Below, in pieces: positions 4,659 to 22,450 of a stretch of 64,000 nucleotides of DNA. The stretch is taken from positions 4,800-68,799 of the forward strand of contig VGYW01000001.1 in NCBI GenBank assembly GCA_016872875.1, in the 5' to 3' direction. Below the pieces are notes generated by a model that was given only the letters and a program-made list of their open reading frames with translations, searched no databases and had not been told where the DNA came from. This DNA comes from Planctomycetota bacterium. GTDB lineage: Bacteria; Planctomycetota; PUPC01; DSUN01. Position 1 is the stretch's first letter. Each line of letters begins with the position of its first letter. The translations under genes were made by a program, and so were the position numbers.

Positions 4659-5300
4659 ATGGCAGACCAGACGTGCGAGCAGATCAACACGGCATTGAGA
4701 GACCACCAGAGAGCAGCAGAAGGTTGGTCCCTTCGTGGGTTGGCAGCGAACCTACACATCTGGGCGGAGAGGATGATCCTTGAGTTTGAACTCAACGTGG
4801 GAACGCCTGCGTTGACGCTCGAGAGGCTGCGTCGGAGACAACTGGGACGCTACAGGCATGGGAGGAACGGCTTCGGGCTGCTCGACGAGATAGCTGTGGG
4901 CAAGGAGCACACCCAAGGAAGCCCCTTCTGGCAGGTTCTGGGCACACTCCTCCACGAACTTCTGCACTCCTGGCAGAACCACAACGGTCACCCAGGCAGT
5001 CTCAGAAACCGGAACTACCACAACCAGGAGCTTCGCGACAGAGCCAAAGGGCTTGGCTTGTTGATCGACCAGTGGGGGCGCACGGAGTACGCGCCCGGTG
5101 ACACTCCCTTCCTCTCTCTGCTCAGGGAGTATGGCGTCGAGGCGCCGCAGCTGCCTGTGGAAGAAACGCTGCCCTTGCCCGCGGGCAGGTCGAAGCTCGT
5201 GCTTTACAAATGCCCGTGTGGGGTAAAAGTGCGAGTGGGGCGCTCACGATTCAATGCTCAGTGCCTGGACTGCGGTGGCGTATTCGAAAGGAAAGGTTAG
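4659..5300 (+). CDS. SprT-like zinc metalloprotease
   Basis: This 213-residue protein has HELLH (residues 99-103) followed by a third likely zinc ligand in YHNQEL (His121), the SprT/Spartan arrangement. A C-terminal zinc ribbon follows (CPCG about residue 187, CLDCG about 203). Spartan-type proteases cut DNA-protein crosslinks in eukaryotes; bacterial SprT-like proteins are common on mobile elements and mostly uncharacterised. It is the first gene downstream of the sigma54-type promoter and overlaps the reading region of the following radical SAM gene, so co-transcription is likely. A DNA-repair role fits the two photolyase-like neighbours but is inference. Confidence 0.75.
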   Translation: MADQTCEQINTALRDHQRAAEGWSLRGLAANLHIWAERMILEFELNVGTPALTLERLRRRQLGRYRHGRNGFGLLDEIAVGKEHTQGSPFWQVLGTLLHELLHSWQNHNGHPGSLRNRNYHNQELRDRAKGLGLLIDQWGRTEYAPGDTPFLSLLREYGVEAPQLPVEETLPLPAGRSKLVLYKCPCGVKVRVGRSRFNAQCLDCGGVFERKG

Positions 5301-5311
5301 GGGTGGCGGCC

Positions 5312-6421
5312 ATGCAGGAGCACTCTGGTCTGCAACGGAGCGAGGAAGGGGCGATGGGACCTGTGGGCTCCATCGACACCATTGGTCTCCCCGACCCAGC
5401 CCTCTTTGCAGGAGTGCCAGACGATCTGGCACGGCGCTGGGTGCAGTACCTCTATGCATGGCCCAGGAAGAAACAGGGGCCCCCGCGGCTGAAGAGCCAC
5501 GTGCTCTGTCTCTACGACCCGTTTGCACAACGGTCTCACTTCCCCGCAGGGCTCCGGCTGTGCTGCAACGTGTATGCGGCTTGCCAGCACAGGTGCCAAT
5601 ACTGCTACGCCAGGAACTACATCCAGAACCCCGACAACCCCCGAGCGAAGGACGCCTTCCTGTCAAGGGCAACCCGTGAGGTGGCGGAACTCAGGGAACT
5701 CCAGCTCAACCCCGTTCCCTTGCACATATCCAACAGCACCGATCCCTTTCAGGAGCCCTTGGAGCGCGGCTGCGCCCATACGCTGGGCCTCGTGAGGCTC
5801 ATCAGGGCAAACAGGCAGCTCTTTACCACGGTGACGTGCCTGACGAAGAACCCGCTACTGGCGGCGGAGCCGGCGTACATCGACATGCTGGCCTCGCTTC
5901 TGCCTTGCCAGGTCGAGGTCAGCGTGGCGTTCTACGATGAGACCCACATGCGGACTTTCGAGCCCGGTGCCCCGAGCATCGCTTCCCGGCTCGAGGGGAT
6001 GGCCCGCCTGCGGCAGGCCGGCATCCCGGTCAGCATCAGGATAGACCGGCTGTTCCCGAGGGGGCCTCTGCCTGGCGCTTTCTGGCCGAGGCCTCGGCTA
6101 CAAGACTATGGTGTCAAGCACACGCACTCGCTGGACGAGATCGAGGCCCTGATCAAGTTTGCGTCCCAGCTCGGTTGCCAGAAGGCCATCGTCTCGCCTC
6201 TGAAGGTTCCGGTCGGTCGCTACGCCTCTCGCGCTTTCAGAGACGCCTTCAAGGAACTCTACGCCGCGCCGTTCGGCGGCCGTCCGAGGACGCGCTCCTT
6301 CGCCTGGCGTCTGCCCGATGAGTACGCCCGCGAGACCCTCATCGGCGAAGTCAGCGCCCTAGGACAACGGTACGGCATACCCGTAGTGACCTGCTGGTCG
6401 AACCTGGTTGGCACGAAATGA
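5312..6421 (+). CDS. Radical SAM protein, spore photoproduct lyase-like
   Basis: A 369-residue radical SAM enzyme with CX3CX2C (Cys91, Cys95, Cys98) to bind the 4Fe-4S cluster that cleaves S-adenosylmethionine. The context around the motif and the NSTDPFQEPLE segment resemble the spore photoproduct lyase / Rv2578c group of DNA-repair radical SAM proteins. The ATG at 5312 is chosen; a second ATG at 5354 has a better AGGAAGG site, so the first 14 residues may be untranslated. The gene follows the SprT-like gene by 11 bases. A second, different member of the family lies at 21488, at the far end of the operon. DNA repair is a family-based expectation, not shown. Confidence 0.75.
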   Translation: MQEHSGLQRSEEGAMGPVGSIDTIGLPDPALFAGVPDDLARRWVQYLYAWPRKKQGPPRLKSHVLCLYDPFAQRSHFPAGLRLCCNVYAACQHRCQYCYARNYIQNPDNPRAKDAFLSRATREVAELRELQLNPVPLHISNSTDPFQEPLERGCAHTLGLVRLIRANRQLFTTVTCLTKNPLLAAEPAYIDMLASLLPCQVEVSVAFYDETHMRTFEPGAPSIASRLEGMARLRQAGIPVSIRIDRLFPRGPLPGAFWPRPRLQDYGVKHTHSLDEIEALIKFASQLGCQKAIVSPLKVPVGRYASRAFRDAFKELYAAPFGGRPRTRSFAWRLPDEYARETLIGEVSALGQRYGIPVVTCWSNLVGTK

Positions 6422-6474
6422 GCATCAGAATGCCCGATCACCAGGCAACGGCTGACACAGCAAGGAGGACGTTG

Positions 6475-7440: not shown

Positions 7441-7516
7441 GGGTGGATGCATGGCCCCAGCGCACAGTGTGTTGGCAACCGCCCACCGCACCACAGGCAG
7501 ATGAGGAGAGTGACTG

Positions 7517-8518
7517 ATGATCGGCGCCAGCGATAGCGTTGCAGCCGGCAGGAGGGCCGCGACGATGCCAGGGGCCGTGGGGTTCTCCCCGGCGCTCTTC
7601 GGCCCGGGCGACATCAGCCGCCGGATGGGGGAACACCAGTTGCTCCACGAAGAGGCCGCGGAGGACGTGCTCTCGGCGACGCGCCTGCCCTCCGCGGAGT
7701 TTGAAGAGGAGCGCCAACGGCTCGTGCTCCGAGAGGACCAGAGCCGAGTGCTCGCGCGCTATGCGGAACTCCTGCACCTCCTTCAGCAGAGCGCGGGCGC
7801 GTGTGCTTTGCTCAACCAGTTTGTTCTCTTCGAGGGAGAACCCGGAACAGGGAAGAGCATGTCGGCGCGGGCGATGGCTCAGACCATGGCTCAACGGCAT
7901 CGTGAGACGTTCTGCAACGATACGGCTTTCGCGCACCTGCGCGTGTCAAGGCTGTTCTGCGAACACCTGGGGAAAACCGGGCGAACCATCGCCTCCGCTT
8001 TCGAACAAGTCCGGGGTTTGGTGCGCCGCCACCAGACGATCCTCATGATAGACGAACTCGACTCGCTCGGGCTTTCCAGAGCGCGGCTGTCGGCCGGCGA
8101 CCCAAGCGACGTCGCCCGGGCGGTCAACGAGCTTCTCACCCAACTCGACGGGATGCGCGGCTGGCCCACGTTCCTGGCGATCGGCACGACGAACCTCCTC
8201 TCTGTGCTCGACCAGGCCTTGCTGGACCGCGCGGACATCGTCGTGCACTTCGACGCGCCTGACGCGGAGGCCGGGGCGCGGATTCTTCTTCAGGCCGCAC
8301 GCGACGTCGAAAGCCTGGGCATCCGGATCGGGGAGGATGAACTGCGCGCCGCTGCTGCGGAACTGTGCGGTGATGGCAATGGCCACAGGGCGTCAGGCAG
8401 GCTCCTAGCGAAGCTGCCCCTCCTCGCCTACCTCGATGGGCGTTCCTCGCAGGTGACCGCGCAGTCCATGATCGAGGTCGCGCGCAGAAGGGCGGGGGAA
8501 CAGGAGGCCGGGCGATGA
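7517..8518 (+). CDS. TRIP13/Pch2-like AAA+ ATPase
   Basis: A 333-residue AAA+ protein with GEPGTGKS (Walker A, 107-114), LMIDEL (Walker B, 176-181), TTN sensor 1 (about 224-226), LLDRADI around the arginine finger (236-241) and a sensor-2 segment GRLLAKLP. The stretches IDELDSLGLSRARLSAGDPS and ELLTQLDG, plus the SGRLLAKLPLLA segment, closely parallel eukaryotic TRIP13 as I know it. TRIP13 enzymes unfold the N-terminus of HORMA proteins to disassemble their complexes; the bacterial homologue does this in type III CBASS. A HORMA-domain gene lies two genes downstream, supporting the call. GAGGAG precedes the ATG. The stop overlaps the next start (ATGA). Confidence 0.85.
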   Translation: MIGASDSVAAGRRAATMPGAVGFSPALFGPGDISRRMGEHQLLHEEAAEDVLSATRLPSAEFEEERQRLVLREDQSRVLARYAELLHLLQQSAGACALLNQFVLFEGEPGTGKSMSARAMAQTMAQRHRETFCNDTAFAHLRVSRLFCEHLGKTGRTIASAFEQVRGLVRRHQTILMIDELDSLGLSRARLSAGDPSDVARAVNELLTQLDGMRGWPTFLAIGTTNLLSVLDQALLDRADIVVHFDAPDAEAGARILLQAARDVESLGIRIGEDELRAAAAELCGDGNGHRASGRLLAKLPLLAYLDGRSSQVTAQSMIEVARRRAGEQEAGR

Positions 8519-8985
8519 GCCTGCTGCGGAAGGGAATCACGGTATTCAACAGGAAGCCGATCGAATGGACCGGCGTCCTTCAGAGGATGATCCGCGAGAT
8601 TGTGGAGGCCGTTCAGGTCGAGCTTTCTGAGGCCGAACTCGACGCCATCCTTTCGTTGCCCTACCGCATCGTCGACCTTGTCCAATCGGGGATCGTGGAG
8701 GCGGTTGAGCTGAAAGCCGGCCAGGAGGGCTGCGCGATCGCCTTCCCATCGGAGCCGGACGCTCCCGACGATGTGGACCTGTCAATGCTCGCGTTGTGCG
8801 ACCTTCGCGCGATGAAGCTCGTGGCGGAGGTTGTGGTGAACGACATGCCCCTGGCCCGGTCGCTCGGGGCTGGAGCGCTGGAACAGATGTCGTCGAACGC
8901 GCTCACCGTGTCGCTTCGCAGCAGTGGGCGGAGCTCGGGCGCCGGGAGCCGGCCACGACCGGGAAGGGACCAACGAAGAAAGTGA
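8515..8985 (+). CDS. Hypothetical protein between TRIP13-like and HORMA genes
   Basis: A 156-residue acidic-to-neutral protein that I do not recognise. The N-terminal 60 residues look helical, and the last 30 are Ser/Gly/Arg-rich and probably disordered. Its start overlaps the stop of the TRIP13-like gene (ATGA) and the HORMA gene begins 9 bases after its end, so it is embedded in that module and a partner role is plausible. No E2-type HPN motif or catalytic cysteine context is visible. Confidence 0.55.
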   Translation: MSLLRKGITVFNRKPIEWTGVLQRMIREIVEAVQVELSEAELDAILSLPYRIVDLVQSGIVEAVELKAGQEGCAIAFPSEPDAPDDVDLSMLALCDLRAMKLVAEVVVNDMPLARSLGAGALEQMSSNALTVSLRSSGRSSGAGSRPRPGRDQRRK

Positions 8986-8994
8986 GGTTGAGCA

Positions 8995-9537: not shown

Positions 9538-9553
9538 GAACTGGAGAACGGTC

Positions 9554-9856
9554 ATGGAGCCCAACCCCGAAGCCGTGGCGGCCGCAGTCGCAGGCGGGCT
9601 AGCCATCGTCTTCCTCATCTGGGCGGTCAGGGCCTCTGCCACCGCCTCGCAGCGGCAGGAGGAAATCCGCAGCCTCCAGACCGCGGTGGCGGGGCGCGAC
9701 TGGACGATCAACGAGCAGAGGAGGCGTCTGGCAGCGATCAACGCGGGGCTCGGCGAGCTCGAAGAAGCCATCGCCGAGCTCGAGCGAAGCGCGGCCAGAG
9801 GGCCGAGTCGGCTGAGGCTGAGCCCCGACGGGCGGCTCCTGGAGGGTCCGCAATGA
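9554..9856 (+). CDS. Small membrane-anchored coiled-coil protein
   Basis: A 100-residue protein with one N-terminal membrane segment (about residues 10-27, AAAVAGGLAIVFLIWAV), then a Gln/Glu/Arg-rich helix with heptad character to about residue 80, and a short tail. It probably faces the cytoplasm from an inner-membrane anchor. It is preceded by CTGGAG and its stop overlaps the start of the second E1-like gene (ATGA). It could tether the HORMA/E1 machinery to the membrane; that is inference from position only. Confidence 0.6.
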   Translation: MEPNPEAVAAAVAGGLAIVFLIWAVRASATASQRQEEIRSLQTAVAGRDWTINEQRRRLAAINAGLGELEEAIAELERSAARGPSRLRLSPDGRLLEGPQ

Positions 9857-10653
9857 TTGACGACTGGTTCGCTCCTCTCCGCGGCCTGATTGACGTGGCT
9901 CATATCGAGCGCACCGTGCGCCTGCTGGTCGTCGGCTGTGGCCGCGTGGGGCTGTCCTTCATTCACATCGCCATTGCTCGTGGCGTCAGGTGGCTGAGGG
10001 TCATAGAGCCTGACTGGACGGAGAGCCGCAACTACGCGAGCGGCTTCCCCGAGGCCGCCGTGGGGTCTCGGAAGATCGATTTCCTGCGCGAGCACCTGCT
10101 CAGGTACAGCAGCAGGATCTCGTTCGAGGGCGCGTCGGCCCGCCTCACCGCCAGCTCAGTGGAGCCGTTCCTTTCCTGGCTGTCGCGTTCCACGCACGTG
10201 GCGCTGTTCCTCGACAGCTTCGAGGTGGCCTCCGCGCTGGCCAGGATGGCCTACAGGCACTGTCCCTGCCTCTACGCCGCGGTGTTCGAGAACGGCAGCA
10301 CTGGCGAGGCGGCGTGGTCGCTCGGCGGCCAGACCCCATGCCTTGAGTCAACGGTCAGGCTCTCAGAGAAGCGCGGGGCACGGGGCGGGCAGACGGCGCT
10401 GGTCGACGTCCTGAGCACCGTGAACGTATCGGTGCGGCAGTTCCTGGGCCTCGCGCTCGCGGGGCGCCGCGGCTTCGAGCTTTTCGCGCCGTACGTCCGG
10501 CCGCGTTTCCCCCTTGCCGTGGTGGTGAATCGCCCTGGCGGGTTCGTTGAGATGGGGAGCCCCGACGTGCCATCAGGGGTGAGGTTGGTCGAGGTGGTCG
10601 ATGGGAACGGCCGCGGCCCAACCTGTCCCACTTGTGCGGGCTACAGCCCGTAG
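9853..10653 (+). CDS. Second E1/ThiF-like protein, divergent
   Basis: A 266-residue Rossmann-type protein with VVGCGRVG (about residues 29-36), a VIEPDW acidic strand, then ESRNY and VGSRKIDFL, matching the order of the E1/ThiF signature (GxGxxG, acidic residue, Asn, Lys). It differs from the 1030-1683 protein: the second acidic residue of the strand is altered, and a CPTC pair ends the protein, possibly a zinc site or a reactive cysteine. It may be an adenylating enzyme or a pseudo-E1 partner, since eukaryotic E1s work as active/inactive pairs. It is ATGA-coupled to the upstream coiled-coil gene. Confidence 0.7.
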   Translation: MIDDWFAPLRGLIDVAHIERTVRLLVVGCGRVGLSFIHIAIARGVRWLRVIEPDWTESRNYASGFPEAAVGSRKIDFLREHLLRYSSRISFEGASARLTASSVEPFLSWLSRSTHVALFLDSFEVASALARMAYRHCPCLYAAVFENGSTGEAAWSLGGQTPCLESTVRLSEKRGARGGQTALVDVLSTVNVSVRQFLGLALAGRRGFELFAPYVRPRFPLAVVVNRPGGFVEMGSPDVPSGVRLVEVVDGNGRGPTCPTCAGYSP

Positions 10654-10666
10654 AGAGGAGCGTGCC

Positions 10667-10894
10667 ATGAGGCCAGCGGTCTTGTCCAGGGTTCCCTCCG
10701 TGGAACCCCCTGTGATGGCGGAGAGCCCGAGGCCCAGCCGCCTGCGGGCGGCGCTCGCGGACCTCCGTTCGCTCACGAGCGAGCCGGAGGGGAGAGTGCC
10801 AGGCCGGGCCGCAGTGCCGGCGTACGGCGACGAAGCGCCGGCGCCCGTGAGCGCTCCGCGCGTCATCGAACGGCCAGTCGAGGGGATCGACTGA
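10667..10894 (+). CDS. Small disordered protein
   Basis: A 75-residue Pro/Arg/Ala-rich protein, probably unstructured, starting at an ATG preceded by GAGGAG. No recognisable domain. It does not end in a Gly-Gly or Pup-like GGQ/GGE tail, so there is no evidence that it is a conjugated tag. It sits 13 bases after the second E1-like gene. Confidence 0.4.
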   Translation: MRPAVLSRVPSVEPPVMAESPRPSRLRAALADLRSLTSEPEGRVPGRAAVPAYGDEAPAPVSAPRVIERPVEGID

Positions 10895-10956
10895 CCTGGC
10901 GGCCGGAAGGGGCGGGCCCGCGCCGCTCCCTCTCCGGCCGTGCCTGGAGACAACAG

Positions 10957-11367
10957 ATGAGAAAAGACGAAGTGCTGCGCCTCAGACAAGCCGCCGGAGG
11001 CGGGACCAGGCAGACCACCGTCCGCTACGTCGGGGGGCTGGCCTCCGACGGCGGTGTCGCCTTCGAGAAAGAGGAGGTCCAGCTCGAAGAAGACAATGGG
11101 TTACGGACGGTTGAGTGGATAGGAACCCGCTTCTGCGATTGCGGCACGATCATCGACGGCAAGGAGGCCGCCATCACAGGGCGCTGTTCCTATCCTGGCT
11201 GCACGGCATTGACCTGCTCAAAGTGCGTCAAGCGGTGCTGTGCGGATGGCGACGGGAGGACCTTCTGTCCGCGCCACGCTCGGACCTACGGCCACGGCGA
11301 CGGCAAGACCTACTGCTCTCGCCACTCGTGGCTCCGCTGGTGGCGCGCTTTCTGGGGGCTCGACTGA
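10957..11367 (+). CDS. Cys/His-rich zinc-binding protein
   Basis: A 136-residue protein whose second half has dense metal-ligand pairs: FCDCG, CSYPGC, CSKC, CC, FCPRH and YCSRH. The spacing suggests two or more interleaved zinc sites, as in treble-clef, B-box or RING-like modules. It ends in an aromatic WLRWWRAFWG segment that may bind membrane or a partner. Beside two E1-like genes and near a JAB gene, an E3-like role is conceivable, but I cannot match a defined RING signature. Function unknown. Confidence 0.6.
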   Translation: MRKDEVLRLRQAAGGGTRQTTVRYVGGLASDGGVAFEKEEVQLEEDNGLRTVEWIGTRFCDCGTIIDGKEAAITGRCSYPGCTALTCSKCVKRCCADGDGRTFCPRHARTYGHGDGKTYCSRHSWLRWWRAFWGLD

Positions 11368-11368
11368 G

Positions 11369-11614
11369 ATGTCCATTCTGGCCTTTGCGGTCATTCTGCT
11401 CCTGCTCCTCGGGCCGTTGCGGCGCCTGTGCATGCGCAATGCCAGATTCGCCGTGCCGGCGATGCTCGGGGCCGTCGTGGGTTACTGCCTGGGGTTGCTG
11501 GCCCTTGCCGCCGGCCTGCCGTACCCATGGCTGCCGTGGGCGTGGGCCGCCCTCGCCGCGTTCTTTGTCGGGGAGGCAGGCTCCGAGTGGTTCCGCCGCG
11601 TCTTCCGCGAATGA
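11369..11614 (+). CDS. Small two-pass membrane protein
   Basis: An 81-residue protein with a hydrophobic N-terminal segment (about 2-15), a second membrane span (about 30-52) and a third Trp/Ala-rich hydrophobic patch (about 54-68), then a basic end. It starts one base after the previous stop. No family is recognised. It may be a membrane anchor for the adjacent zinc-binding or HerA-like protein. Confidence 0.5.
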   Translation: MSILAFAVILLLLLGPLRRLCMRNARFAVPAMLGAVVGYCLGLLALAAGLPYPWLPWAWAALAAFFVGEAGSEWFRRVFRE

Positions 11615-11624
11615 GGGGCATCCC

Positions 11625-13682
11625 ATGCCGGACGGTTTCGACAGGCTGGCTGATTTCCTCGGCCGAGACCACCGCTCGATAGCGGGGATCCTCTGGGCCG
11701 CACAGCACAACTCCAAGATGAGGGGTGCCGCCTACTACGCACTCCGCAGGCGGTGCAAGCAAGAGACGGGCGTCAATCCCGACAACCTGCCGCCCTTCCC
11801 GCTCGTGAGGGAGCTGCCTGCCGGGGAACTTGTGGTTGGCAATGCGCTCAACGGGCAGATGCTCGGGCCGGTGTTCGCCCTGCCCATTTCGGACACCAAG
11901 GGACATTTCGGCGTCTTCGGCGCGACGGGGCAGGGGAAGTCGTTCCTGGCGAAACACCTCATCACTGAGTTCATCCGAGCGGGAGGGAGGGCGTGGGTGT
12001 TTGACACCGAAGGGGAACATGGCGACATCCTCTCCCTGCTCCCCGCGGAAGTGCTCGTTCCTGTCACGCCCGATGCCCTCCGTATTTCGCTCTTCGAACC
12101 GCCGCGCGATTCCATCGAGCCCAAGGTCTGGCTCGGGGAGATCGGGCTGCAACTCCGCGGCTCAACGTTCATACGCGACGGCGCCGAGAACCTGTTCGGC
12201 TCCTCGATGCTCAAGCTGTTCGAGCGCAAAGGCATCCTCACCGGCTCGCGCGCGTACCCCACCCTCGACGAAGCGTTCGCGCACTTCGCGGGCATGAGCT
12301 TTGGGCCGAAGAGCCGGAACGCAACCTGGCTCGAGAGCCTGACCAACAGGCTCACCATGCTGTCCAACGCGCTCGGCCCGACCTTCAGCGCGTCCACCTC
12401 GGGGGTCCTGCCGTTCCTCGCAAATCGGTCGGCCATCTTCCGCCTCAACGGTCTCCAAGGAGGAGTCGCCGTCCAGTTCTTCGCCGGTTTCCTCCTGGCG
12501 TGGCTTGCGGCCTACAAGGAAGGGGAGACAGAGCCGGCCATGCACATGGTCGTCATTGAGGAAGCGCACGTGCTCCTGCCCGACCGAAACCGCATGGACC
12601 TCGGGGAGGCCGTGCTTCCCGATCTCTTCCGGCGCGGCAGGAAACGTTCGATGATCCTTGCCATCCTCGACCAGGTCCCTGGCTTGCTGCCGCCCGCGGT
12701 CCTTGCGAATCTGGGGTGTTGCATCACGATGCGGATCACTGACCCGAAATCGCTCTGGACCATGGGCAACTCGATGGCGCTCACGCCCGAGCAGTCGGCC
12801 GTGCTGCCGGAACTCCAGGCGCGAGAAGCAGTGGTCCGCATCGCCGCACACCCTAAGCCATTCCTGGCGAGGATCCGTGACCTGTCCTTTGGGCCGAGAC
12901 CTTCCGAAGCTGAGATGCGCCGCAGGGCCGAGGACGCTCTCGCCGGAGTGACGTGGACGCCCGGCATAATGCCGCCCAGCGCACGGCATGGCTCACCCAC
13001 GGTTGCCGACGGGCCTGCCCAGCTCGGTGAACTTCCCGGCGACGCGCTGAAGGTCATGCTCGACATCTGCGCTCGCTCAGACCATTTCATTGACGAGCGA
13101 TGCGAAGAGACACAGCTTGACCGGAGCAGGGAGCTGCGGGCCAGGAAGATGCTCCTGGACAGGGGGCTCATTGAGGAGCTGAGCCAGACGATGGGGAAGC
13201 TCACCTTCTACCAGGTTACGCCCAAGGGTGAGGACTGGGCCCACCAGCACCGCGTCCACGTCAAGAAGTACAAGTCCGGGCCGGTTCACGAGGCCATCCT
13301 CACCAAGGTTCAGCGCGCCCTCGGCATGGCGCTTCCAGGCGCCCGCTTCCAGCGTGGGAGTACGATCGGCTCCGAGATCGGCAAGGAGCCAGACCTCGCT
13401 CTGACCCTCAAAGAAGGACGCGCGATCTTGGTCGAGGTCTGCTGCCACAACGTGACCCGCCAGGTGGAGACCCTTCTCGAGGAAGCGGCGATCCAGGACG
13501 TAGATATGCTCGTCGCGGTCACGGCCGGCGTGGAGCTGCGCCGCAAGCTCCAGCAGGAGCTGGACAAGAAGGCGAAGGACAGCGGGCCTCGGCTCTTCAC
13601 GAAGGGGACTGTGACCGTGATCAGCGCCCCAGACTGCTTAGAGCCGGGTTTTGACTGGGTCGACCTTCTGAGCCGGCCTTGA
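11625..13682 (+). CDS. HerA/FtsK-family ATPase with C-terminal winged-helix and nuclease-like domain
   Basis: A 685-residue protein. GATGQGKS (residues 99-106) is Walker A and MVVIEEAHVLLP (about 308-319) is Walker B with the EEAH typical of HerA/DUF87 ATPases, hexameric pumps that translocate DNA. About residues 450-560 look like a winged-helix region. The C-terminus (about 580-680) has EPDLALTLKEGRAILVEVC, resembling a PD-(D/E)xK nuclease core in which the final Lys is replaced by Cys, so cleavage ability is doubtful. The ATG at 11625 is preferred to the 170-residue in-frame extension, which overlaps two upstream genes. Likely role: DNA mobilisation, processing or defence. Confidence 0.8.
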   Translation: MPDGFDRLADFLGRDHRSIAGILWAAQHNSKMRGAAYYALRRRCKQETGVNPDNLPPFPLVRELPAGELVVGNALNGQMLGPVFALPISDTKGHFGVFGATGQGKSFLAKHLITEFIRAGGRAWVFDTEGEHGDILSLLPAEVLVPVTPDALRISLFEPPRDSIEPKVWLGEIGLQLRGSTFIRDGAENLFGSSMLKLFERKGILTGSRAYPTLDEAFAHFAGMSFGPKSRNATWLESLTNRLTMLSNALGPTFSASTSGVLPFLANRSAIFRLNGLQGGVAVQFFAGFLLAWLAAYKEGETEPAMHMVVIEEAHVLLPDRNRMDLGEAVLPDLFRRGRKRSMILAILDQVPGLLPPAVLANLGCCITMRITDPKSLWTMGNSMALTPEQSAVLPELQAREAVVRIAAHPKPFLARIRDLSFGPRPSEAEMRRRAEDALAGVTWTPGIMPPSARHGSPTVADGPAQLGELPGDALKVMLDICARSDHFIDERCEETQLDRSRELRARKMLLDRGLIEELSQTMGKLTFYQVTPKGEDWAHQHRVHVKKYKSGPVHEAILTKVQRALGMALPGARFQRGSTIGSEIGKEPDLALTLKEGRAILVEVCCHNVTRQVETLLEEAAIQDVDMLVAVTAGVELRRKLQQELDKKAKDSGPRLFTKGTVTVISAPDCLEPGFDWVDLLSRP

Positions 13683-15238: not shown

Positions 15239-16504
15239 ATGAATACTCGCGAGGAAGCGTTTCCCGGCCCGTGCGGTCACGACGCACTCGCCATCGTCTC
15301 TCCGGCCTGCCTGGGGAACGAGGAGAAGAACCAGGACCGGGTGTTCTGGTCGCCGGCCGTCGGCGTCGCCGCCGTGTGCGACGGGGTGACGACCTCCCCC
15401 TTCGCGGCGGAGGCGGCCGAGCTTGTGTCGAAGTCCAGCCCTCTGCTCTTCGGGGGCGAGCTCGAAGACCGCCTGCGGGTTCTGTGCGAGCTTCTCGTGG
15501 CCCGCCGCCTCGAAGCGCGGGGGGCCGGGATCAAGCCCTGCCTAGGCATGCCGGAGGCCATGCAGGAGATGCTGCGCGAGGTCGCCGAGGAGAAGATGGC
15601 CCGCGCGTTCCAGACGACGCTCGCCGCTGCCTGGTTCGTCCTTGGCGACGACGCGGTCTGCGTGACCGTGGTGCGGTGCGGGGACTCCGGCTTCTTCGCC
15701 TTCGGCTCGGACGGGACACTGCTGGTTTCGTCATTGCCGGATGCCTCCAAGCCCGTGGCTTCTGTCAGCGCCACCGGAGGCGGGGAGCAGCCGCCTCCCG
15801 CCTCCGGCCGCTTCCGCTTCGGGCCTGGCGACGAGCTTCACGCGAGAGTGCTCGGCACAGCCAGGGAGCTCCCGATCTTCGCGCAGAAAGCGGGCATGGC
15901 GGCCGGCAGCGGGGACGGCTGGCTCGTCTGCGCCCCCGTGGACCAGCTCACTTGCGCCGGATGCCCTGCCAATGGCGAGCACGCCGAAGGGCGCACCCTG
16001 CGCCTCGGCCCCGACGACCTGCTGCTCGTTCCGAAGTACCTCTGCGGCGCCCCGAACGGCGTGAAGCGACGGCGTTACGTGGACTTCCCTTTCTCCCGAT
16101 CCGTCCGGGTCGTCTCGTCCTCGCCAAACGCCGGCCAGCCCACACGCTTTTCCGAGCGGGGCTCGACTACCGCGGTCCTCCCGGACAGTTGCTGCGCGGG
16201 CGGCTGGGTCAGCTTCCAGGACAGGTTCCCCGCCGACAGCCACTTCGTCCTGGCGAGCGATGGTTTCTACGGCGCCTTCGACGGGCCGGCGGAACTCTTG
16301 GCCTGGTTGAGACAGAACGAGGCCCGACTCATCGACGCGGAAGAGCGCGACAAGGCGCTCCACGACCTGCACGTCCGACTTCAGGCGAAGAGCGGAGACG
16401 ACGACATCTCTTTCGTCTGGGTCCGGCCAGGGTCCGCATTGACTGACGGGTCGAATTGCGGTTCTGCCGACGGTGAAGCAGGAGGAACGAGAAATGCCCG
16501 CTGA
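15239..16504 (+). CDS. PP2C-family serine/threonine phosphatase
   Basis: A 421-residue protein with the PP2C metal-binding order: NQDR (about 31-34), AAVCDGV (44-50), VVRCGDSG, FVLASDGFYGAF and a terminal DDDISF. These residues hold two Mn/Mg ions that hydrolyse phospho-Ser/Thr. An insertion of about 150 residues in the middle contains several Cys (CAGCPANG), possibly a zinc-stabilised lobe not usual in small bacterial PP2Cs. It presumably reverses the two kinases encoded downstream. The start at 15239 gives a one-base gap after the vWA stop; its end overlaps the first kinase start by 11 bases. Confidence 0.8.
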   Translation: MNTREEAFPGPCGHDALAIVSPACLGNEEKNQDRVFWSPAVGVAAVCDGVTTSPFAAEAAELVSKSSPLLFGGELEDRLRVLCELLVARRLEARGAGIKPCLGMPEAMQEMLREVAEEKMARAFQTTLAAAWFVLGDDAVCVTVVRCGDSGFFAFGSDGTLLVSSLPDASKPVASVSATGGGEQPPPASGRFRFGPGDELHARVLGTARELPIFAQKAGMAAGSGDGWLVCAPVDQLTCAGCPANGEHAEGRTLRLGPDDLLLVPKYLCGAPNGVKRRRYVDFPFSRSVRVVSSSPNAGQPTRFSERGSTTAVLPDSCCAGGWVSFQDRFPADSHFVLASDGFYGAFDGPAELLAWLRQNEARLIDAEERDKALHDLHVRLQAKSGDDDISFVWVRPGSALTDGSNCGSADGEAGGTRNAR

Positions 16505-17642
16505 TGTGGTGGAGAGATGGCTGAGGAGCGGCGGCCCGGCCAATGTGGATGGGATTGCCCTGCGCCCGGTCGAGCACAAGGGGATGCCGGGCATGCCACT
16601 CTCGGTCCAGCGTGGGCAAGCTGAGGCCTTCTGCCTCGCGGGCAGCGACGGGAGCCGGTGGGTGCTCAAGAAGTTCCACCCGGGCCGCCGCCTGGACCGC
16701 TCCTATCTTGAGGGGGTCGCCACCGTCCTGCCAGACCACGGTGGCCTGCTCTCCGGGACCGATCGCAGCGTCCTGTCCGTCGCCTCTTTGCACAAGGAAC
16801 ACGGCTTCTACTACACCCCCGACCTCGCTCGGTGGCTCCACGACACGGTGCTGATGCCACGGGTGAACGGGGTGGACTGGGCCACCATCGCCGATGGCGT
16901 TCGCGACGGGAGCATCAAGCTGGAGCGGCCCCACCGCCTCGCCCTCCTTCGTGGCCTCACGGACATCATCCTGCTGCTGGAGGAGCGGCAGTGTGCCCAC
17001 CGCGACCTTTCCAGCGGAAACGTCTTCGTCAACTGCCAGGCCTGGATGGTCCTGCTGATCGACTTCGATAGCGTTTTCCACCCCGCGCTGGCGATGCCGA
17101 ATGCGACCACATGCGGGACGGAGGGATACACACCGCCCTACGCCTGGCAAGGAGGTGCACTGGACCCGCGGCAGACTTGGTGCCAGGGGGCAGACCGTTT
17201 CGCGCTGTGTGTCCTCTGCGTCGAGTTCCTCATTCTGGACGCTGGGGCGCCGCTTGCGGCTGAGGGAGGGATGTTCGAACAGGAGGAACTTCGCTCCCGC
17301 TCGGGAAGGGGCATCTCCCTTGCCCTCGCCGCCTTGAAGGCGAAATACCCCGCGGCCGGGCCATTGTTCGAGGCAGCCCTTCGCAGCACGAGCTTCCGGG
17401 ACTGCCCCTCGCCTAAGGACTGGGCACGCTTCTGCGACTCGACGCCCGGCGCCCCCATGAAGCCGCCGCGCCTCGACGAGCTGGAGAGCGTCTCCCCCGA
17501 CTTCTTCGACCAGCTTCTGGCGAAGGCCCGGCCGGCCGCTCCGCTCTGGCCGGCGCCGCGACTGGCTGACATGCCCGCTCCCACGCTTGAGCTGCCGCGG
17601 AAGAGGGTGCCAGTGGTTTCTCTGCCTCCAGACCCCTGGTGA
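16494..17642 (+). CDS. Protein kinase-like protein (TerY-P triad type)
   Basis: A 382-residue kinase fold: VLKK (residues 57-60, ATP-anchoring lysine), HRDLSSGNVFV (169-179, catalytic loop with Asp171 and Asn176) and DFD in place of DFG (190-192). All catalytic residues are present, so it should be active on Ser/Thr or act as a regulatory kinase. The C-terminal 60 residues are Pro-rich. The ATG at 16494 has a GGAGGAA site 13 bases upstream and lies inside the end of the PP2C gene. Its stop overlaps the next kinase start (GTGA), so the four signalling genes are translationally coupled. Confidence 0.8.
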   Translation: MPADVVERWLRSGGPANVDGIALRPVEHKGMPGMPLSVQRGQAEAFCLAGSDGSRWVLKKFHPGRRLDRSYLEGVATVLPDHGGLLSGTDRSVLSVASLHKEHGFYYTPDLARWLHDTVLMPRVNGVDWATIADGVRDGSIKLERPHRLALLRGLTDIILLLEERQCAHRDLSSGNVFVNCQAWMVLLIDFDSVFHPALAMPNATTCGTEGYTPPYAWQGGALDPRQTWCQGADRFALCVLCVEFLILDAGAPLAAEGGMFEQEELRSRSGRGISLALAALKAKYPAAGPLFEAALRSTSFRDCPSPKDWARFCDSTPGAPMKPPRLDELESVSPDFFDQLLAKARPAAPLWPAPRLADMPAPTLELPRKRVPVVSLPPDPW

Positions 17643-19240
17643 AAGTGAGAGCCAGGACGCACAGAATGAATGCGACGAACTCGTATGCCGACATTGTAGA
17701 GCGATGGCTTGCCTCCAGGCTGACGGCGCGCATCTCGGGCCTCGACCTGCGGCCCCTCCCACACCCGGCGTTGCCCGACACGCCCTGGTACGTGGTCAAG
17801 GGCCAGGCGTCGGTTATTTTCCTCAAGCAGCATCCGCACAACAACGGCTGGCTGCTCAAGAAGTTCATCGAATCCCGCCGGCCGACCGACGAGTACCTGG
17901 CGGCCGTCCCCCGCTGCCTGCCCGGCGGCGCGGAGCTTTTCACCTGCACCCAGCGCCGTCTGCTCACCGCGAGGCACCTGGACTTGTGGAATTCCGGCTT
18001 CAGGGACAAGGCATTGTCCGCCTTGGTGGAGGGGACGATCCTCATGCCCAAGGTCACGGGCTCCTCGTGGGCCTCGGTGGCCGACGATCTCCGAGACGGG
18101 CACGCTACGATGACCATCCGCCAACGGCTCGTGGTCAGCCTGAGCCTGACCGAGTGCGTCGGTCGGCTGGAAGCGGCGCACTGCAGCCACCGGGACTTCT
18201 CGGGCCTCAACGTGTTCGTAACCCCGGACGGCCGGGTCCACCTGATCGACTTCGATTCGTTCTACCACGCCGACCTGCCCTTCCAACCCAACACTACGGC
18301 GGGGACGCCCGGCTACATGGCCCCGTTCCTCCGGGGCCCCTCAGGCGGTTGGGATGCGTCGCGGTCTTGGTGCCCGTGCGCTGACCGGTTCGCCCTCGCC
18401 ATCCTGGTGGCGGAGTTCCTGCTCGTCGGTCCCGACACGCCGCCGCCGAGGGAGGATGGCTCCCTCTTCGCCCAGGCCGAGCTGGACCAGCCGGACGCAG
18501 GCTTTGTCCAAGAGCAGATCAAGGCATTAGAGAGGGTGTCGAGGGAGTGCGGCCTCCTGCTCAGGCGGTGCCTCGCGGCGACGACGTTCGAGGCCTGTCC
18601 TTCGCCGGCGGAATGGCAAAGCGCACTTCGGCACGCGTTGCGGGTCGAGACGGCACGCGAGAAGACCGAGCATCCCAGGGGGGCATTCGCCTGCCGGGTG
18701 AGGTACTTCTGCGCGGAATGCCAGCACCTGCTTTCGATCGATCTGGCGAGGTCGCGTGAGCTAGAAAGGCAGGGCAAGCCCGTCCTCTGCTCGTCCTGCC
18801 TCCAGGCAAAGCTCAGTGCCCAGTCCGCCGCACGCCTGGAGCGCGATTCGGCATACCCCGAGGTCAACTGCGAGCACTGCACGGCCGCCTTCAGGATGCC
18901 GCGCGCCAAGCTCGACCTGCTGCGGTCGCAGGGAAGGCCCATCCTGTGCGGTACGTGCCTGCCGAAGCAGATGCGCCTCTGGGAGGCGGAACGAGACCAG
19001 AAGGCCCGCGACTATCCGCAGGCGACTTGCGCACAGTGTGCAACGAGGTTCCGGATCCGAAGGGAGAAGCTCGAGGGCCTGACAGCCAAGGGGAGGCCAG
19101 TGCTTTGCCGCCGGTGCCTCGAAGCCGCCCTTTCCCCGGGTAGGCCCGCGCCACGCCCCATCGTGCCGGCCACGCTCGGCGCAGGAGGCAACCCGTCCCC
19201 CTTCTGGCAGGCTGTCCGATGGCTCATAGTGGCGCCATGA
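17639..19240 (+). CDS. Protein kinase with three C-terminal zinc ribbons
   Basis: A 533-residue paralogue of the preceding kinase: LLKK (72-75), HRDFSGLNVFV (184-194), DFD (204-206) and GTPGYMAP. After the kinase fold come three tandem repeats of about 55 residues, each with a CxxC pair, a basic helix and a second CxxC pair (CAEC/CSSC, CEHC/CGTC, CAQC/CRRC), surely zinc ribbons that could bind nucleic acid or partner. The GTG at 17639 overlaps the upstream stop; an ATG at 17666 is an alternative. Its end overlaps the ribonucleotide reductase start (ATGA). The kinase pair plus PP2C plus vWA set is a variant TerY-P triad. Confidence 0.8.
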   Translation: MKVRARTHRMNATNSYADIVERWLASRLTARISGLDLRPLPHPALPDTPWYVVKGQASVIFLKQHPHNNGWLLKKFIESRRPTDEYLAAVPRCLPGGAELFTCTQRRLLTARHLDLWNSGFRDKALSALVEGTILMPKVTGSSWASVADDLRDGHATMTIRQRLVVSLSLTECVGRLEAAHCSHRDFSGLNVFVTPDGRVHLIDFDSFYHADLPFQPNTTAGTPGYMAPFLRGPSGGWDASRSWCPCADRFALAILVAEFLLVGPDTPPPREDGSLFAQAELDQPDAGFVQEQIKALERVSRECGLLLRRCLAATTFEACPSPAEWQSALRHALRVETAREKTEHPRGAFACRVRYFCAECQHLLSIDLARSRELERQGKPVLCSSCLQAKLSAQSAARLERDSAYPEVNCEHCTAAFRMPRAKLDLLRSQGRPILCGTCLPKQMRLWEAERDQKARDYPQATCAQCATRFRIRREKLEGLTAKGRPVLCRRCLEAALSPGRPAPRPIVPATLGAGGNPSPFWQAVRWLIVAP

Positions 19241-21447
19241 TGGACGAGAAACCAAGCTTGAACCCCGAGGGAACCAACGCACTCTCCCCGAACGCGGAGC
19301 AACTCCTCCGCGCACGCTACTACGGCCGCGATACGAACGGCGAGGTCATGGAGGACTTCCCTGCCCTGGCGGACCGAGTGGCAAGCTTCCTGGCGAACGC
19401 CGAGCACCGCTACGGCGGCCCCGCCGCGGTGAAGGAGGCGCAAGAGATCTTCCGCGGGCTCATCGTTCCCAGGAGACTCGTGCCGAGCTCCTCGATCCTC
19501 ATGGGCGCAGGCACCCGCTCACCCTCTCTGGCCGCGTGCTTCGTCCTGCCGATGCCGGACATCCTCGATGCCATAATGGAGTCCGTCAAGAGTTCAGCCA
19601 TCATCCAAAAGGGTGGAGGGGGCTGTGGGTTCTCATTCAGTCGCTTGAGGCCCAGAGGCTCACCCGTCGCCGGGACGAACGGCGTCGCCTCCGGTCCCGT
19701 GTCGTTCATCGAGTTGTGCAACGCGACGTCAGAGGCAATCAAACAAGGGGGCCGCCGCCGGGGGGCGAATATGGCCGTCCTCGGGATCGACCACCCGGAC
19801 ATCATGGAGTTCATCCAAGCCAAGACGCAGCCTGGCAGGCTCCAGAACTTCAACCTCTCCGTGGCAGTCACCGACGCGTTCATGGAGGCTGTGCGCGCCG
19901 ACGGCTCATACGAGCTGGTTGCCCCGCATACAAACCAGGTCGTCCGCACGCTTCGAGCGCCAGACATCCTGCGCCGCATCGCCGAGAACGCCTGGCGCAC
20001 CGGCGACCCTGGGGTGGTCTTCATTGACGAGATCAACAAGCACAACCCCCTGCCTGCCCTCGGTCCAATCGAGGCCACCAACCCCTGCGGGGAACAGCCG
20101 CTTGAACCTTGGGGAGCCTGCTGCCTCGCCTCGATCAACCTCTCCGCTCACGTCAAGTCCGGCGAGATAGACTGGGACGCGCTGGCGGAGAGCGCTCGGG
20201 CGGGCGTCAGGTTGTTGGACGATGCCATTGACGCCAGCTCATACCCGCTGGAGCAGATCGAGCGCACGGTCAAGGCATCCCGGAAGATCGGCCTCGGCAT
20301 CATGGGCCTCGCGCACGCCCTTGCGAAGCTGGGCATCCCGTACGACTGCGAAGAAGGCGTCCGGTGGGCGGAGAAGGTCATGAGCTTCATCTCCCAGCAC
20401 GCCTTGGAGGCGTCCCGCCTTCTGGCGAAGGAGCGGGGCCCCTTCCCGGCCTTCAAGCGAAGCGTCTATGCTGAACGAGGCGAGCCGCCTCTCCGCAACG
20501 CGACCCGCACGACGGTCGCGCCGACCGGTAGCCTCAGCATCATTGCTGACACCTCCAGCGGCATTGAGCCCATGTTCGCCTTGGCGTACACCCGAACCGT
20601 CCTCGGCGGCAAGTCCTTCTCGGTGGTCGATCCCGCCTTCAGGGACGTCGCCCAAGCGTGCGGCGTCTTCAGCGACGATCTCGCACGAAAGGTCGCAGAG
20701 ACCGGGAGCGTGCAAGCGGCCAAGGACTTCCCCGACGATCTCAAGGCGGTCTTCAAGACGGCGCATGAGATCGCGCCGGAGTGGCATGTGAAGATGCAGG
20801 CTGCGATCCAGCGACATACGGACAACGCCGTCTCAAAGACCGTCAACCTGGCGGCCTCCGCCACCGTCGAGGACGTCGAGCAGGTCTTCTTACTGGCTCA
20901 CAAGCTGGGATGCAAGGGCACCACTGTCTTCCGGCAGGGCTGCCGCACCGGGGTCTTGAACACAGGCACGACAAGCCCCCAGTACGCCGCAATGCGAAGT
21001 CGGCCCAAGCTGACGCTCGGATCCACAGAGAAATTCCGGAGCGGCTGCGGCTCTCTCTACGTTCATGTGACTCGGGATTGCAACGGGCTGTTGGAGGCGT
21101 TCTCAAACCTGGGCAAGGGCGGCGGGTGCCCGGCCCAGTCCGAGGCGACGGCGAGGCTCGCCTCGTTGTGCCTCCGCTGCAACGTCGATCCGCACGAGAT
21201 CGTCCACCAGCTTCGAGGCATCCGCTGCCCGACAGCGTGCAGCGCCAGGGCCGAGGGAAAGCCCATTGACGTGCTCTCCTGCCCTGACGCCATCCCCCAG
21301 GCGCTCGCCAGGGCCTTGCGGAGTGACGAAGATCCCGCAGGCGAGATTGGCGCCCTCGAACGGTGCCCCAAGTGCGGCGGCCGGCGCGAGCCCGGGCGCT
21401 GCGGCGTCTGCCTCTCGTGCTGGGAGGGCGGGTGTGAAGGATCATGA
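19237..21447 (+). CDS. nrdJ: Class II (adenosylcobalamin-dependent) ribonucleotide reductase
   Basis: A 736-residue enzyme that reduces ribonucleotides to deoxyribonucleotides using a B12-derived radical, independent of oxygen. NPCGEQPLEPWGACCLASIN contains the NxCxE active-site motif. About residues 590-680 match the C-terminal domain typical of B12-dependent reductases (CGSLYV to LRGIRCP), and the end has CPKCG and CGVC pairs for redox exchange or zinc. The length is usual for the class. The start at ATG 19237 overlaps the kinase stop (ATGA). A full reductase inside a signalling/repair operon is unusual; it could raise dNTPs for repair or replication of the element. Confidence 0.9.
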   Translation: MMDEKPSLNPEGTNALSPNAEQLLRARYYGRDTNGEVMEDFPALADRVASFLANAEHRYGGPAAVKEAQEIFRGLIVPRRLVPSSSILMGAGTRSPSLAACFVLPMPDILDAIMESVKSSAIIQKGGGGCGFSFSRLRPRGSPVAGTNGVASGPVSFIELCNATSEAIKQGGRRRGANMAVLGIDHPDIMEFIQAKTQPGRLQNFNLSVAVTDAFMEAVRADGSYELVAPHTNQVVRTLRAPDILRRIAENAWRTGDPGVVFIDEINKHNPLPALGPIEATNPCGEQPLEPWGACCLASINLSAHVKSGEIDWDALAESARAGVRLLDDAIDASSYPLEQIERTVKASRKIGLGIMGLAHALAKLGIPYDCEEGVRWAEKVMSFISQHALEASRLLAKERGPFPAFKRSVYAERGEPPLRNATRTTVAPTGSLSIIADTSSGIEPMFALAYTRTVLGGKSFSVVDPAFRDVAQACGVFSDDLARKVAETGSVQAAKDFPDDLKAVFKTAHEIAPEWHVKMQAAIQRHTDNAVSKTVNLAASATVEDVEQVFLLAHKLGCKGTTVFRQGCRTGVLNTGTTSPQYAAMRSRPKLTLGSTEKFRSGCGSLYVHVTRDCNGLLEAFSNLGKGGGCPAQSEATARLASLCLRCNVDPHEIVHQLRGIRCPTACSARAEGKPIDVLSCPDAIPQALARALRSDEDPAGEIGALERCPKCGGRREPGRCGVCLSCWEGGCEGS

Positions 21448-21487
21448 AACGAGTACCCCAATGACCGAAGCGTGGAAGGAGAACAAC

Positions 21488-22450
21488 ATGCGGTGCTACG
21501 AGTACAGGCTCAAGACAGGGATCACGCGAACCCTCGAGTTTGCGCGCAAGCTGCTTGCGTGGTTCGCCGTCAATGTGGGGCTCAGGTGCGGCCACAATTG
21601 CCTCTACTGTAGCACCGGCGCCGTCCTGCGCACCCACCCCTGCTTCAGGGCACTGGGGGAAAGCCCGTTCGGCCACGGCTACTGCATCGTGGACCCCAGC
21701 ACGCCGGAGCGGGTCGCCAGGGACGCAGCCCGGCTCAGGGAACGCGGCCTCATCCAGCTCTGCACGCTGACCGACGCCTGGGCGCCCGAAGCGAAGAAGC
21801 TCGAGCTCGGCCGCCGTTGCCTCGAGGCTATCCTCGCACAGCCTGGCTGGACGGTTCGCATCCTGACTAAGAGCGCGGCCGTCCGGGAGGACTTCGGCTC
21901 GCTCGAGAAACACCGTGACCGCGTCCTCGTCGGCCTGAGCCTGACGGCCATGCCCGAGAAGAGTCCCATCAACAATATCCTCGAACCGAACGCGTCTGAC
22001 ATCCGGGATCGAATGGCCGCGATGACCGAGGCCGCTGCGCGGGGCCTTCGGGTGTACGGAATGCTGTGCCCCTTCCTGCCGGGCATAGCCGATGCCCCGG
22101 AGGACATCGACCAATTGGTCACGTTCGTCGTGGGCTGCCGAGCCCAGGAGATCTTCGTGGAGGCAGTCAATCCCCGCGGTCCCGGCCTGCTGCACTGCCA
22201 AGAGGCCCTGCAAGCGCGGGGGAACACCAGTGAGACAGCGGCCATCGCACGGATCAGACGCCGCCAAGACTGGTCGCAGTACTGCCTTGACCTTGTCCGC
22301 AATGTCCAGGCGGGCGTTCGCCGGCACTTCGACATCGGGAAGCTACGCTTCCTGCTGTACCCCTCGGGGCTGCTTCCCGGGCACGAGGCCGCGATCCACA
22401 AGGACGACGCCGGTGTCGTTTGGCTGGGGAAGTCACCCACGACGCCTTGA
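21488..22450 (+). CDS. Second radical SAM protein, spore photoproduct lyase-like
   Basis: A 320-residue protein with CGHNCLYC (Cys34, Cys38, Cys41) for a radical SAM 4Fe-4S cluster, followed by a TIM-barrel-like body. The general pattern (VNVGLRCGHNCLYCSTG, LTKSAAVREDF) resembles the SPL/photolyase-like radical SAM group rather than cofactor-maturation enzymes. The ATG at 21488 is chosen because AAGGAG lies 6 bases upstream; an in-frame ATG at 21461 has no site. It is 41 bases after the reductase gene and probably the last gene of the sigma54-type operon. It is not a close copy of the 5312 gene. Confidence 0.75.
   Translation: MRCYEYRLKTGITRTLEFARKLLAWFAVNVGLRCGHNCLYCSTGAVLRTHPCFRALGESPFGHGYCIVDPSTPERVARDAARLRERGLIQLCTLTDAWAPEAKKLELGRRCLEAILAQPGWTVRILTKSAAVREDFGSLEKHRDRVLVGLSLTAMPEKSPINNILEPNASDIRDRMAAMTEAAARGLRVYGMLCPFLPGIADAPEDIDQLVTFVVGCRAQEIFVEAVNPRGPGLLHCQEALQARGNTSETAAIARIRRRQDWSQYCLDLVRNVQAGVRRHFDIGKLRFLLYPSGLLPGHEAAIHKDDAGVVWLGKSPTTP

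Follow-up and report, generated by a model that had tools for sequence, protein, structure and literature searches.

We describe a run of 19 predicted open reading frames (ORFs) at positions 4659–22450 of a 64,000-nt stretch of a Planctomycetota contig (VGYW01000001.1, assembly GCA_016872875.1; hereafter the window), in which a TRIP13-like ATPase and a HORMA protein, arranged as in type III cyclic oligonucleotide-based anti-phage signalling systems (CBASS), share close quarters with a von Willebrand factor A (vWA)–PP2C–kinase module, a HerA-like ATPase, a class II ribonucleotide reductase (RNR) and putative DNA-repair enzymes (Table 1). Our favoured reading, which we hold tentatively, is that these genes form one operon on a mobile element, where a cyclase-less TRIP13–HORMA switch together with TerY-P-type signalling would gate a DNA-processing arm that answers phage attack or DNA damage. 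The original prediction, made from the letters of the sequence, had spoken of a signalling-controlled defence or DNA-repair island; it was right about the modules and their packing, and its functional reading stays plausible.

All 19 ORFs lie on the forward strand with a coding share of 98.0% (ORF listing and translation), spacings of −22 to 104 nt and 4-nt overlaps at B–C, D–E, G–H and O–P, which bears out the dense same-strand packing first noticed over this interval. The run has natural borders, since 818 nt separate its first gene from the end of a sigma-54-type activator and 321 nt separate its last gene from the start of an excisionase-like gene. Between 3800 and 23400, terminator-like sites on both strands number 7, fewer than the 10.8 found in shuffled sequence, and the only one on the forward strand (at 11542) falls inside ORF J2. 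The packing and the few terminator-like sites support, without proving, a single transcript. The promoter scan of 3800–23400 listed no sigma-70-like promoter ahead of the run. Its sole promoter-like site (10/12, at 23097–23124, with 1.4 expected by chance) lies just before the integrase gene. Control through sigma-54 promoters was considered and set aside, the window having 23 matches where 26.4 are expected and thus no enrichment. The radical SAM, TRIP13, HORMA, E1-like, HerA, vWA, PP2C, kinase and class II RNR genes that had been listed from sequence were all recovered by Pfam, NCBIfam or PADLOC matches, some of them sub-threshold.

Table 1 Predicted features of the gene run (A–R) and of its flanks, in positions of the window.
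Gene	Predicted product	Coordinates	Strand	Basis
A	SprT-like zinc protease (putative)	4659..5300	+	HELLH, C-terminal CLDC; phrog_6361 29.7 bits; Pfam sub-threshold
B	Radical SAM, PA0069/Rv2578c-like	5312..6421	+	PF04055 34.4 bits; NF033668 60.6, cut-off 360; CQHRCQYC
C	HisG-like (ATP phosphoribosyltransferase family), 340 aa	6418..7440	+	PF01634 30.2 bits, cut-off 25.5
D	TRIP13-like AAA+ ATPase, 333 aa	7517..8518	+	PADLOC TRIP13 102.4 bits; AAA Pfam 80.6
E	156 aa, slot of small CBASS HORMA protein	8515..8985	+	Position and similar length only
F	HORMA protein, 180 aa	8995..9537	+	PF18173 (bacHORMA_2) 64.9 bits, cut-off 27.3; PADLOC HORMA 70.4
G	100 aa, hydrophobic N-terminal stretch, then coiled-coil-like (by eye)	9554..9856	+	Open frame; Pfam sub-threshold only
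H	ThiF/E1-like	9853..10653	+	PF00899 45.0 bits; PADLOC E1-E2 25.4
I	75-aa ORF	10667..10894	+	No Pfam match
J	136 aa, Cys/His-rich, possible zinc finger (by eye)	10957..11367	+	Sequence; no Pfam match
J2	81 aa, hydrophobic, probable membrane protein (by eye)	11369..11614	+	Open frame
K	HerA-like ATPase	11625..13682	+	PF01935 (DUF87/HerA) 38.6 bits; PADLOC mad8 61.2, HerA 44.2; GATGQGKS, MVVIEE
L	205-aa protein	13703..14320	+	ORF
M	TerY-like vWA	14425..15237	+	PADLOC TerY 68.0 bits; Pfam VWA_2 23.5, cut-off 27; DDSGS..GGTD..LTDG (metal ion-dependent adhesion site, MIDAS)
N	PP2C-type phosphatase	15239..16504	+	PF13672 (PP2C_2) 33.5 bits, cut-off 24
O	Protein kinase 1	16494..17642	+	PADLOC STK_OB 28.6 bits; Pfam 20.4, cut-off 31.7; LKK, HRDLSSGN, DFD
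P	Protein kinase 2, C-terminal zinc-ribbon-like CxxC pairs	17639..19240	+	PF00069 32.1 bits, cut-off 31.7
Q	Class II (B12) RNR	19219..21447	+	PF02867 457.6 bits; TIGR02504 (NrdJ_Z) 652.4, cut-off 400; NPCGE, CPKC, CGVC
R	Second radical SAM, Rv2578c/PA0069-like	21488..22450	+	Radical SAM Pfam 36.2 bits; NF038135 58.0, cut-off 430; CGHNCLYC
	JAB/JAMM-type isopeptidase, upstream of run	68..919	+	Motif HTHPGNMGCFWSHTD
	ThiF/E1-type adenylyltransferase, upstream of run	1030..1683	+	PF00899 64.2 bits; PADLOC E1-E2 55.2
	Sigma-54-type activator	2434..3840	+	PF00158 198.1 bits; N-terminal part unassigned
S	Excisionase-like helix-turn-helix (HTH) protein	22772..23164	+	phrog_66 20.3 bits; Pfam HTH_17 19.3, cut-off 27
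T	Tyrosine integrase	23168..24289	+	PF00589 99.2 bits; phrog_1 206.9
	tRNA-Arg(tct)-like sequence	24331..24405	+	ARAGORN; 3' half regular, ends CCA; 5' half irregular

The predicted switch rests on genes D and F. A two-row profile of F matched the PDB entries 6p8r and 6p8s (E 4e-14 and 5e-14), and the runner-up PADLOC family for D was IetA at 55.9 bits, with a weak mad8 match in addition. When F was compared by tblastn with 72,556 plasmid records, 10 records matched at 27–30% identity, eight of them annotated over the stretch and two not. The gene order was the same in all eight annotated loci, namely an AAA ATPase, a protein of 152–159 aa, the HORMA protein, a ‘CBASS oligonucleotide cyclase’ and a further gene, taken as the effector, which belongs to DUF6602 in six loci and to SAVED in two. 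In the window the first three genes of this order recur, at 333, 156 and 180 aa, and HORMA is then followed by an ORF of 100 aa and a gene for an E1-like protein. Profiles built from the eight loci were run against all 691 six-frame stop-to-stop ORFs (≥50 aa) of the whole 64-kb window, where the TRIP13 profile matched D (89.6 bits, 7.7e-27) and the HORMA2 profile matched F (64.7 bits, 3.4e-19). No match among these 691 ORFs was obtained with the cyclase profile, made from the eight CD-NTases (cGAS/DncV-like nucleotidyltransferases) with other cyclase clades not profiled (best E 2.6), or with the next-gene profile of six DUF6602 and two SAVED proteins, other effector types not being tested (best E 6.1), and the switch therefore looks uncoupled from its usual client. 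HORMA and TRIP13 have been described as a threshold and disassembly switch in CBASS and other conflict systems, as set out in passages of PMC7159879 and PMC10419184. Judged by sequence and order, the TRIP13–HORMA pair and its gene slot are of the type III CBASS kind; the earlier view of the two genes as CBASS accessories holds for the order TRIP13, 156 aa, HORMA, and stops at the cyclase, which was undetected in the window. A tblastn search for F in phages gave no match, while D matched 96 plasmid records (E 1e-8), in each case over less than 80% of the query, with only the neighbours of HORMA hits inspected.

The middle protein of the plasmid loci corresponds to a HORMA-family protein of solved structure (PDB 6p8p, and chain C of 6p8s, named HORMA1; 230 and 216 bits), and its profile had no match among the 691 window ORFs (best E 2, not on E). 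The sequence of E gives no support for taking it as this small HORMA protein, with an hhalign probability of 0.7% and 5 of 100 shuffles scoring as high. In a single-sequence model of E with a predicted local distance difference test score (pLDDT) of 45.6, the order of helices and strands looked similar to that of the small HORMA protein, at low confidence; Foldseek returned nothing for this model at E ≤ 0.001 and no HORMA protein among the best 50 of 143 matches.

The second signalling component is predicted from genes M to P. TerY-P consists of a vWA protein, a PP2C phosphatase and a kinase with a zinc ribbon fused to its C-terminus, and variants with an oligonucleotide-binding (OB) fold kinase act as stand-alone anti-phage systems, both as described in passages of PMC11090510; TerY-P shields Pseudomonas aeruginosa PAO1 from phages, as far as the passages of PMC10889362 go. 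The order vWA, PP2C, kinase in M–P is that of a canonical triad on a Calothrix plasmid (locus L161, 7530–11608; annotated as hypothetical, with TerY at 378.8, PP2C at 100.3 and STK_OB at 348.3 bits), and this triad holds the sole vWA hit. The vWA–PP2C–kinase module had been named correctly from sequence, with one kinase where there are two: O and P are 37% identical over 311 residues (E 7e-58) and both keep the Lys, HRD...N and DFD motifs. Kinase P also exceeds the cut-off of TIGR02098 (24.2 vs 20.9 bits), has six CxxC motifs and gives its top PADLOC matches to MkoA (29.1 bits), PglW (27.5), PD-T4-6 (27.5) and mad6 (25.8), while the PADLOC PP2C model left N unmatched at E 0.01. Because the PADLOC scores are low and the kinase alignment short, M–P appear to be at best a diverged TerY-P relative in which the kinase was duplicated.

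The candidate DNA-processing arm would comprise a HerA-like motor, radical SAM enzymes, a SprT-like protease and a private class II RNR. For the HerA-like K, a start at 11115 was discarded as probably spurious, as it overlaps the Cys-rich ORF at 10957–11367 and the hydrophobic ORF at 11369–11614, and 11625 is likelier. The C-terminal stretch of K resembles, by eye, a PD-(D/E)xK nuclease (PDLAL..VEVC), and a nuclease activity is doubtful because Cys replaces the usual Lys. Protein A is presumably SprT-like, a name given from its motif; its earlier designation as a SprT-like protease is backed by the HELLH and CLDC motifs and not by Pfam, where every protease model stayed below cut-off, and the phrog_6361 family that it matches has no assigned function. 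The two radical SAM proteins, putative kin of photoproduct lyases, are not recent duplicates, since a BLASTP alignment of B with R barely extends past the cysteine motif. The HisG-like C scored 27.7 bits with the NCBIfam hisG model TIGR00070, under its 75.75-bit cut-off; its first ~70 residues are perhaps non-coding, and its single-sequence structure model is too low in confidence for use (mean pLDDT 36.2). Plasmid tblastn searches with kinase P, HerA and the E1-like H gave zero matches, and scanning viral sequences with the first two revealed no relative.

The RNR of the run belongs to a distinct clade. In a protein search 7,999 of the 8,000 scored candidates passed E 1e-100, and the comparison rests on the best 120, among which 13 besides Q are 57–81% identical and the other 106 reach at most 52%. 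A maximum-likelihood tree of 36 of these 120 rows (all 14 clade members plus an analyst's choice of 22 further rows) places Q and its 13 relatives on one side of a branch with a support of 100/100. All members but one (P0020) share the C-terminal signature REPGRCG[VIL]C, a pattern found in 0/400, 0/395 and 0/12 genomes of the sampled phyla; its lone viral hit, L228, proved not to be an RNR. Among the matches listed from GTDB and viral RNR scans, relatives were at most 51% identical over >300 residues, with one 106-residue fragment at 55%, the GTDB scan having used six peptides of which several clade members, e.g., P0019, carry none. A match was present in 38 of 58 genomes of one phylum, at no more than 51% identity except for an 85-residue piece at 54%, and of 201 genomes of another phylum 62 had a match to the clade profile at E 1e-230, with the eight loci examined at ≤49%. 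Passages of PMC5704485 describe a redox-active C-terminal cysteine-rich domain in most class II RNRs, with which the C-terminal cysteines of Q (CPKC..CGVC) agree. Members of the clade may serve specifically in conflict or repair.

Active-site motifs are retained in the kinases, vWA, AAA and RNR proteins. In the mechanism that we propose, the HORMA protein would close around a peptide that comes from a phage protein, a stress protein or a partner protein, and TRIP13 would reopen it and so set the threshold. The closed HORMA complex, in the cyclase's stead, may be sensed by the vWA/PP2C/two-kinase module, and phosphorylation would then turn on HerA together with the repair and dNTP enzymes. Candidates for the client that would replace the cyclase are, by position, G, H, E or a kinase.

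Several observations weigh against this mechanism and the single system that it presumes. Protein E matches the small HORMA protein of CBASS neither in sequence nor in fold, the fold comparison coming from a low-confidence model. The TerY-P resemblance is faint, with M at 68.0 vs 378.8 bits and O at 28.6 vs 348.3 bits for canonical TerY-P, the PP2C model unmatched, and kinase P aligning with the Calothrix kinase across 61 residues only. A word-based search of 5.8 billion proteins, which requires shared 5-residue words, found one homologue of F besides itself (53% identity) and, for D, one close homologue (52%) plus seven weaker ones. The close HORMA and TRIP13 homologues lie on contigs of different size (the longest 15,703 vs 9,627 nt), so that their linkage there is unproven. 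Because the plasmid HORMA proteins found by tblastn (27–30% identity) escaped the word-based search, it speaks to close relatives only. Searching GTDB and viral contigs with HORMA patterns revealed no relative, and tblastn of the run (E 1e-3) against RNR loci, 80 from GTDB and 80 viral, of which many are short, returned beyond RNR one weak AAA and two integrases. The RNR clade has 13 other members against the one close HORMA relative, which may mean that the RNR also moves independently of HORMA. In the loci and contigs scanned, neither a second locus with this gene set nor another instance of its gene order was found, and the unity of the system is accordingly a matter of interpretation. Across 160 and then 227 loci, matches of the run besides RNR were integrases, weak AAA matches and the vWA of the Calothrix locus, which had been chosen for that vWA. 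The HORMA_2 family was found in 0/8 and 0/395 genomes in scans whose controls were silent too, which is no proof of absence. The literature searches returned no publication with this gene set among the matches listed, in agreement with the original remark that no described system is known to combine it.

The run likely sits in an integrated mobile element, because an excisionase-like gene, an integrase and a tRNA-Arg-like end follow it and JAB and E1 genes precede it. An integrase and an excisionase beside a tRNA-derived end are features of tRNA-targeting integrative elements, and the tRNA-Arg-like sequence is likely the attachment site. ARAGORN finds its D arm and acceptor stem irregular, and Rfam did not report it at cut-off, where the tRNA-Val of the window scores 71.6 bits. 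Exact repeats of this stretch in the rest of the window do not exceed 12 nt, and one match of that length is found at 3823–3834, between activator and run (BLAST E 0.75). With a left border near 3823, run and integrase would make up a 20-kb element, and with a border outside the window the element would include the JAB and second E1 genes (68–1683) and measure at least 24 kb. We infer that the JAB gene at 68–919 belongs to the same element as the run. The E1/JAB pairing claimed originally for the run itself holds for the E1-like gene, the JAB gene being upstream of the interval. At the left edge of the window, JAB followed by E1 (68–1683) constitutes a ubiquitin-like (de)conjugation pair whose start may be cut off. 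The JAB protein has weak PDB matches to an Rpn11-like protein (E 0.37) and CSN5 (E 1), with no Pfam match over cut-off and no NCBIfam or PADLOC match, and its E1 neighbour scores 60.3 bits with the NCBIfam anti-phage 6A-MBL cap2_3 model, far under the 320-bit cut-off. The GC content is 0.623 upstream of the run, 0.660 within it and 0.677 to the right of the tRNA-like end, where the core genes PheS, ThrS and RpoA are located.

The rest of the window holds several repeats. A 90-nt sequence rich in GGATGAATGGATG and its complement is present in four related copies, some of which form inverted repeats, at 42496–42585, 45272–45361, 47931–48020 and 56459–56548. Two long inverted repeats, one with 54-nt arms 110 nt apart (28845–29062) and another whose 30-nt arms, of 93% complementarity, are separated by 44 nt (40128–40231), are possibly small mobile or regulatory elements.

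A serious though unlikely alternative is that the element is a defence and repair island and that the run arose by accretion, with separate systems (a TRIP13–HORMA remnant, TerY-P, HerA, and RNR with radical SAM) stacked head to tail so that they share a promoter and not a function. The integrase end and the upstream JAB/E1 pair would suit such a cargo island, as do the RNR clade, broader than the close HORMA family, and a conserved gene order that was seen nowhere else in the scans. It fits poorly with a single-strand run of 19 genes, some of them overlapping, at 98.0% coding, with functional classes that interlock, and with the lack of any integrase or transposase match among the run ORFs scanned with Pfam.

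A different function for a united run would be nucleotide chemistry, which we regard as improbable. The RNR, the HisG-like protein, the two radical SAMs and the E1-like protein would make a modified nucleotide, either a chain terminator or a DNA mark, under the control of HORMA/TRIP13 and the kinases. Ter systems have reportedly been linked to a nucleoside-like metabolite, and the run does combine a HisG-like domain over the Pfam cut-off with a catalytic-looking RNR; however, C misses the NCBIfam hisG cut-off, and Pfam, PADLOC and NCBIfam gave no match in the run to a glycosylase, transferase or methylase that modifies DNA.

We consider it quite improbable that the run is purely a DNA-damage cassette, serving element or host against DNA–protein crosslinks, damaged bases and breaks and in dNTP supply, with no anti-phage role. 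The SprT-like protease, radical SAMs, HerA and RNR would all find a place in such a cassette, and in eukaryotes the HORMA protein MAD2L2 with TRIP13 governs DNA end resection, according to PMC8440562. Bacterial HORMA/TRIP13 and TerY-P are, however, known from defence in the passages of the literature cited above, JAB/E1 genes lie upstream, and neither the SprT nor the photoproduct-lyase assignment is strong. A reduced type III CBASS, with cyclase and effector elsewhere in the genome or of a type that the profiles miss and the rest of the run unrelated, agrees with D and F in order and homology and is very unlikely, as the cyclase immediately follows HORMA in 8/8 annotated loci where the window has an ORF with a hydrophobic stretch and coil and an E1-like gene.

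The reading that we prefer, a cyclase-less switch gating DNA processing, has a bolder form. A cyclase-free HORMA–TRIP13 checkpoint wired to kinase/phosphatase signalling, a HerA-nuclease motor, crosslink-repair and radical SAM repair enzymes and a private RNR might be, on a mobile element in prokaryotes, the equivalent of the way in which REV7/TRIP13 controls DNA-end processing in eukaryotes, an idea that we rate as unlikely and worth stating. Bacterial HORMA–TRIP13 pairs have been described as controlling CBASS cyclases, and eukaryotic pairs control DNA-end repair, among others, according to the papers cited above. If the idea is true, the switch would be a general-purpose module, and the origin of HORMA repair checkpoints would become directly testable.

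Set against known systems, the run agrees with type III CBASS in having TRIP13, an ORF of ~156 aa and HORMA in identical order, with a HORMA protein like 6p8r/6p8s; it differs in that the window has no match to the CD-NTase or DUF6602/SAVED profiles, E is not detectably the small HORMA protein, and a gene for a protein with a transmembrane-like stretch and coil, followed by the E1-like gene, takes the place directly after HORMA that the cyclase has in the plasmid loci. With TerY-P it shares the vWA–PP2C–kinase order, the MIDAS motif and C-terminal zinc ribbons on kinase P, whereas the kinase is duplicated, TerY scores 68 vs 379 bits, the PP2C is unrecognised by PADLOC and the module is set in a 19-gene run. 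Q resembles class II NrdJ in its NrdJ_Z score of 652 bits, its NPCGE motif and its C-terminal CPKC..CGVC, and stands apart through its separate clade, the REPGRCG[VIL]C terminus and at most 52% identity to the other 106 of the best 120 RNRs. A possible distant link to the methylation-associated defence system (MADS) is seen in the matches of K to mad8 (61.2 bits) and of P to mad6 (25.8), although NCBIfam MADS6 on P scores 24.4 bits, far below its cut-off of 460, and no methylase was found; the other mad matches are a sub-significant mad1 (14.6 bits), which falls on a doubtful ORF downstream of the run, and the weak mad8 on D, so that the full MADS set is incomplete. HerA-based defence pairs HerA with SIR2 or DUF4297. 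The run has a HerA-like ATPase with Walker motifs and a PADLOC HerA score of 44.2 bits, whereas SIR2 or DUF4297 was unmatched among the run ORFs scanned with PADLOC (J and J2 were not scanned). From eukaryotic shieldin (MAD2L2/REV7 with TRIP13), as described in PMC8440562, the window differs in that its HORMA protein is of the bacterial HORMA2 type, SHLD1–3 homologues not having been searched for; the likeness, known from the genes alone, is one of logic and not of descent, with HORMA and TRIP13 in both cases placed beside DNA-end-processing functions.

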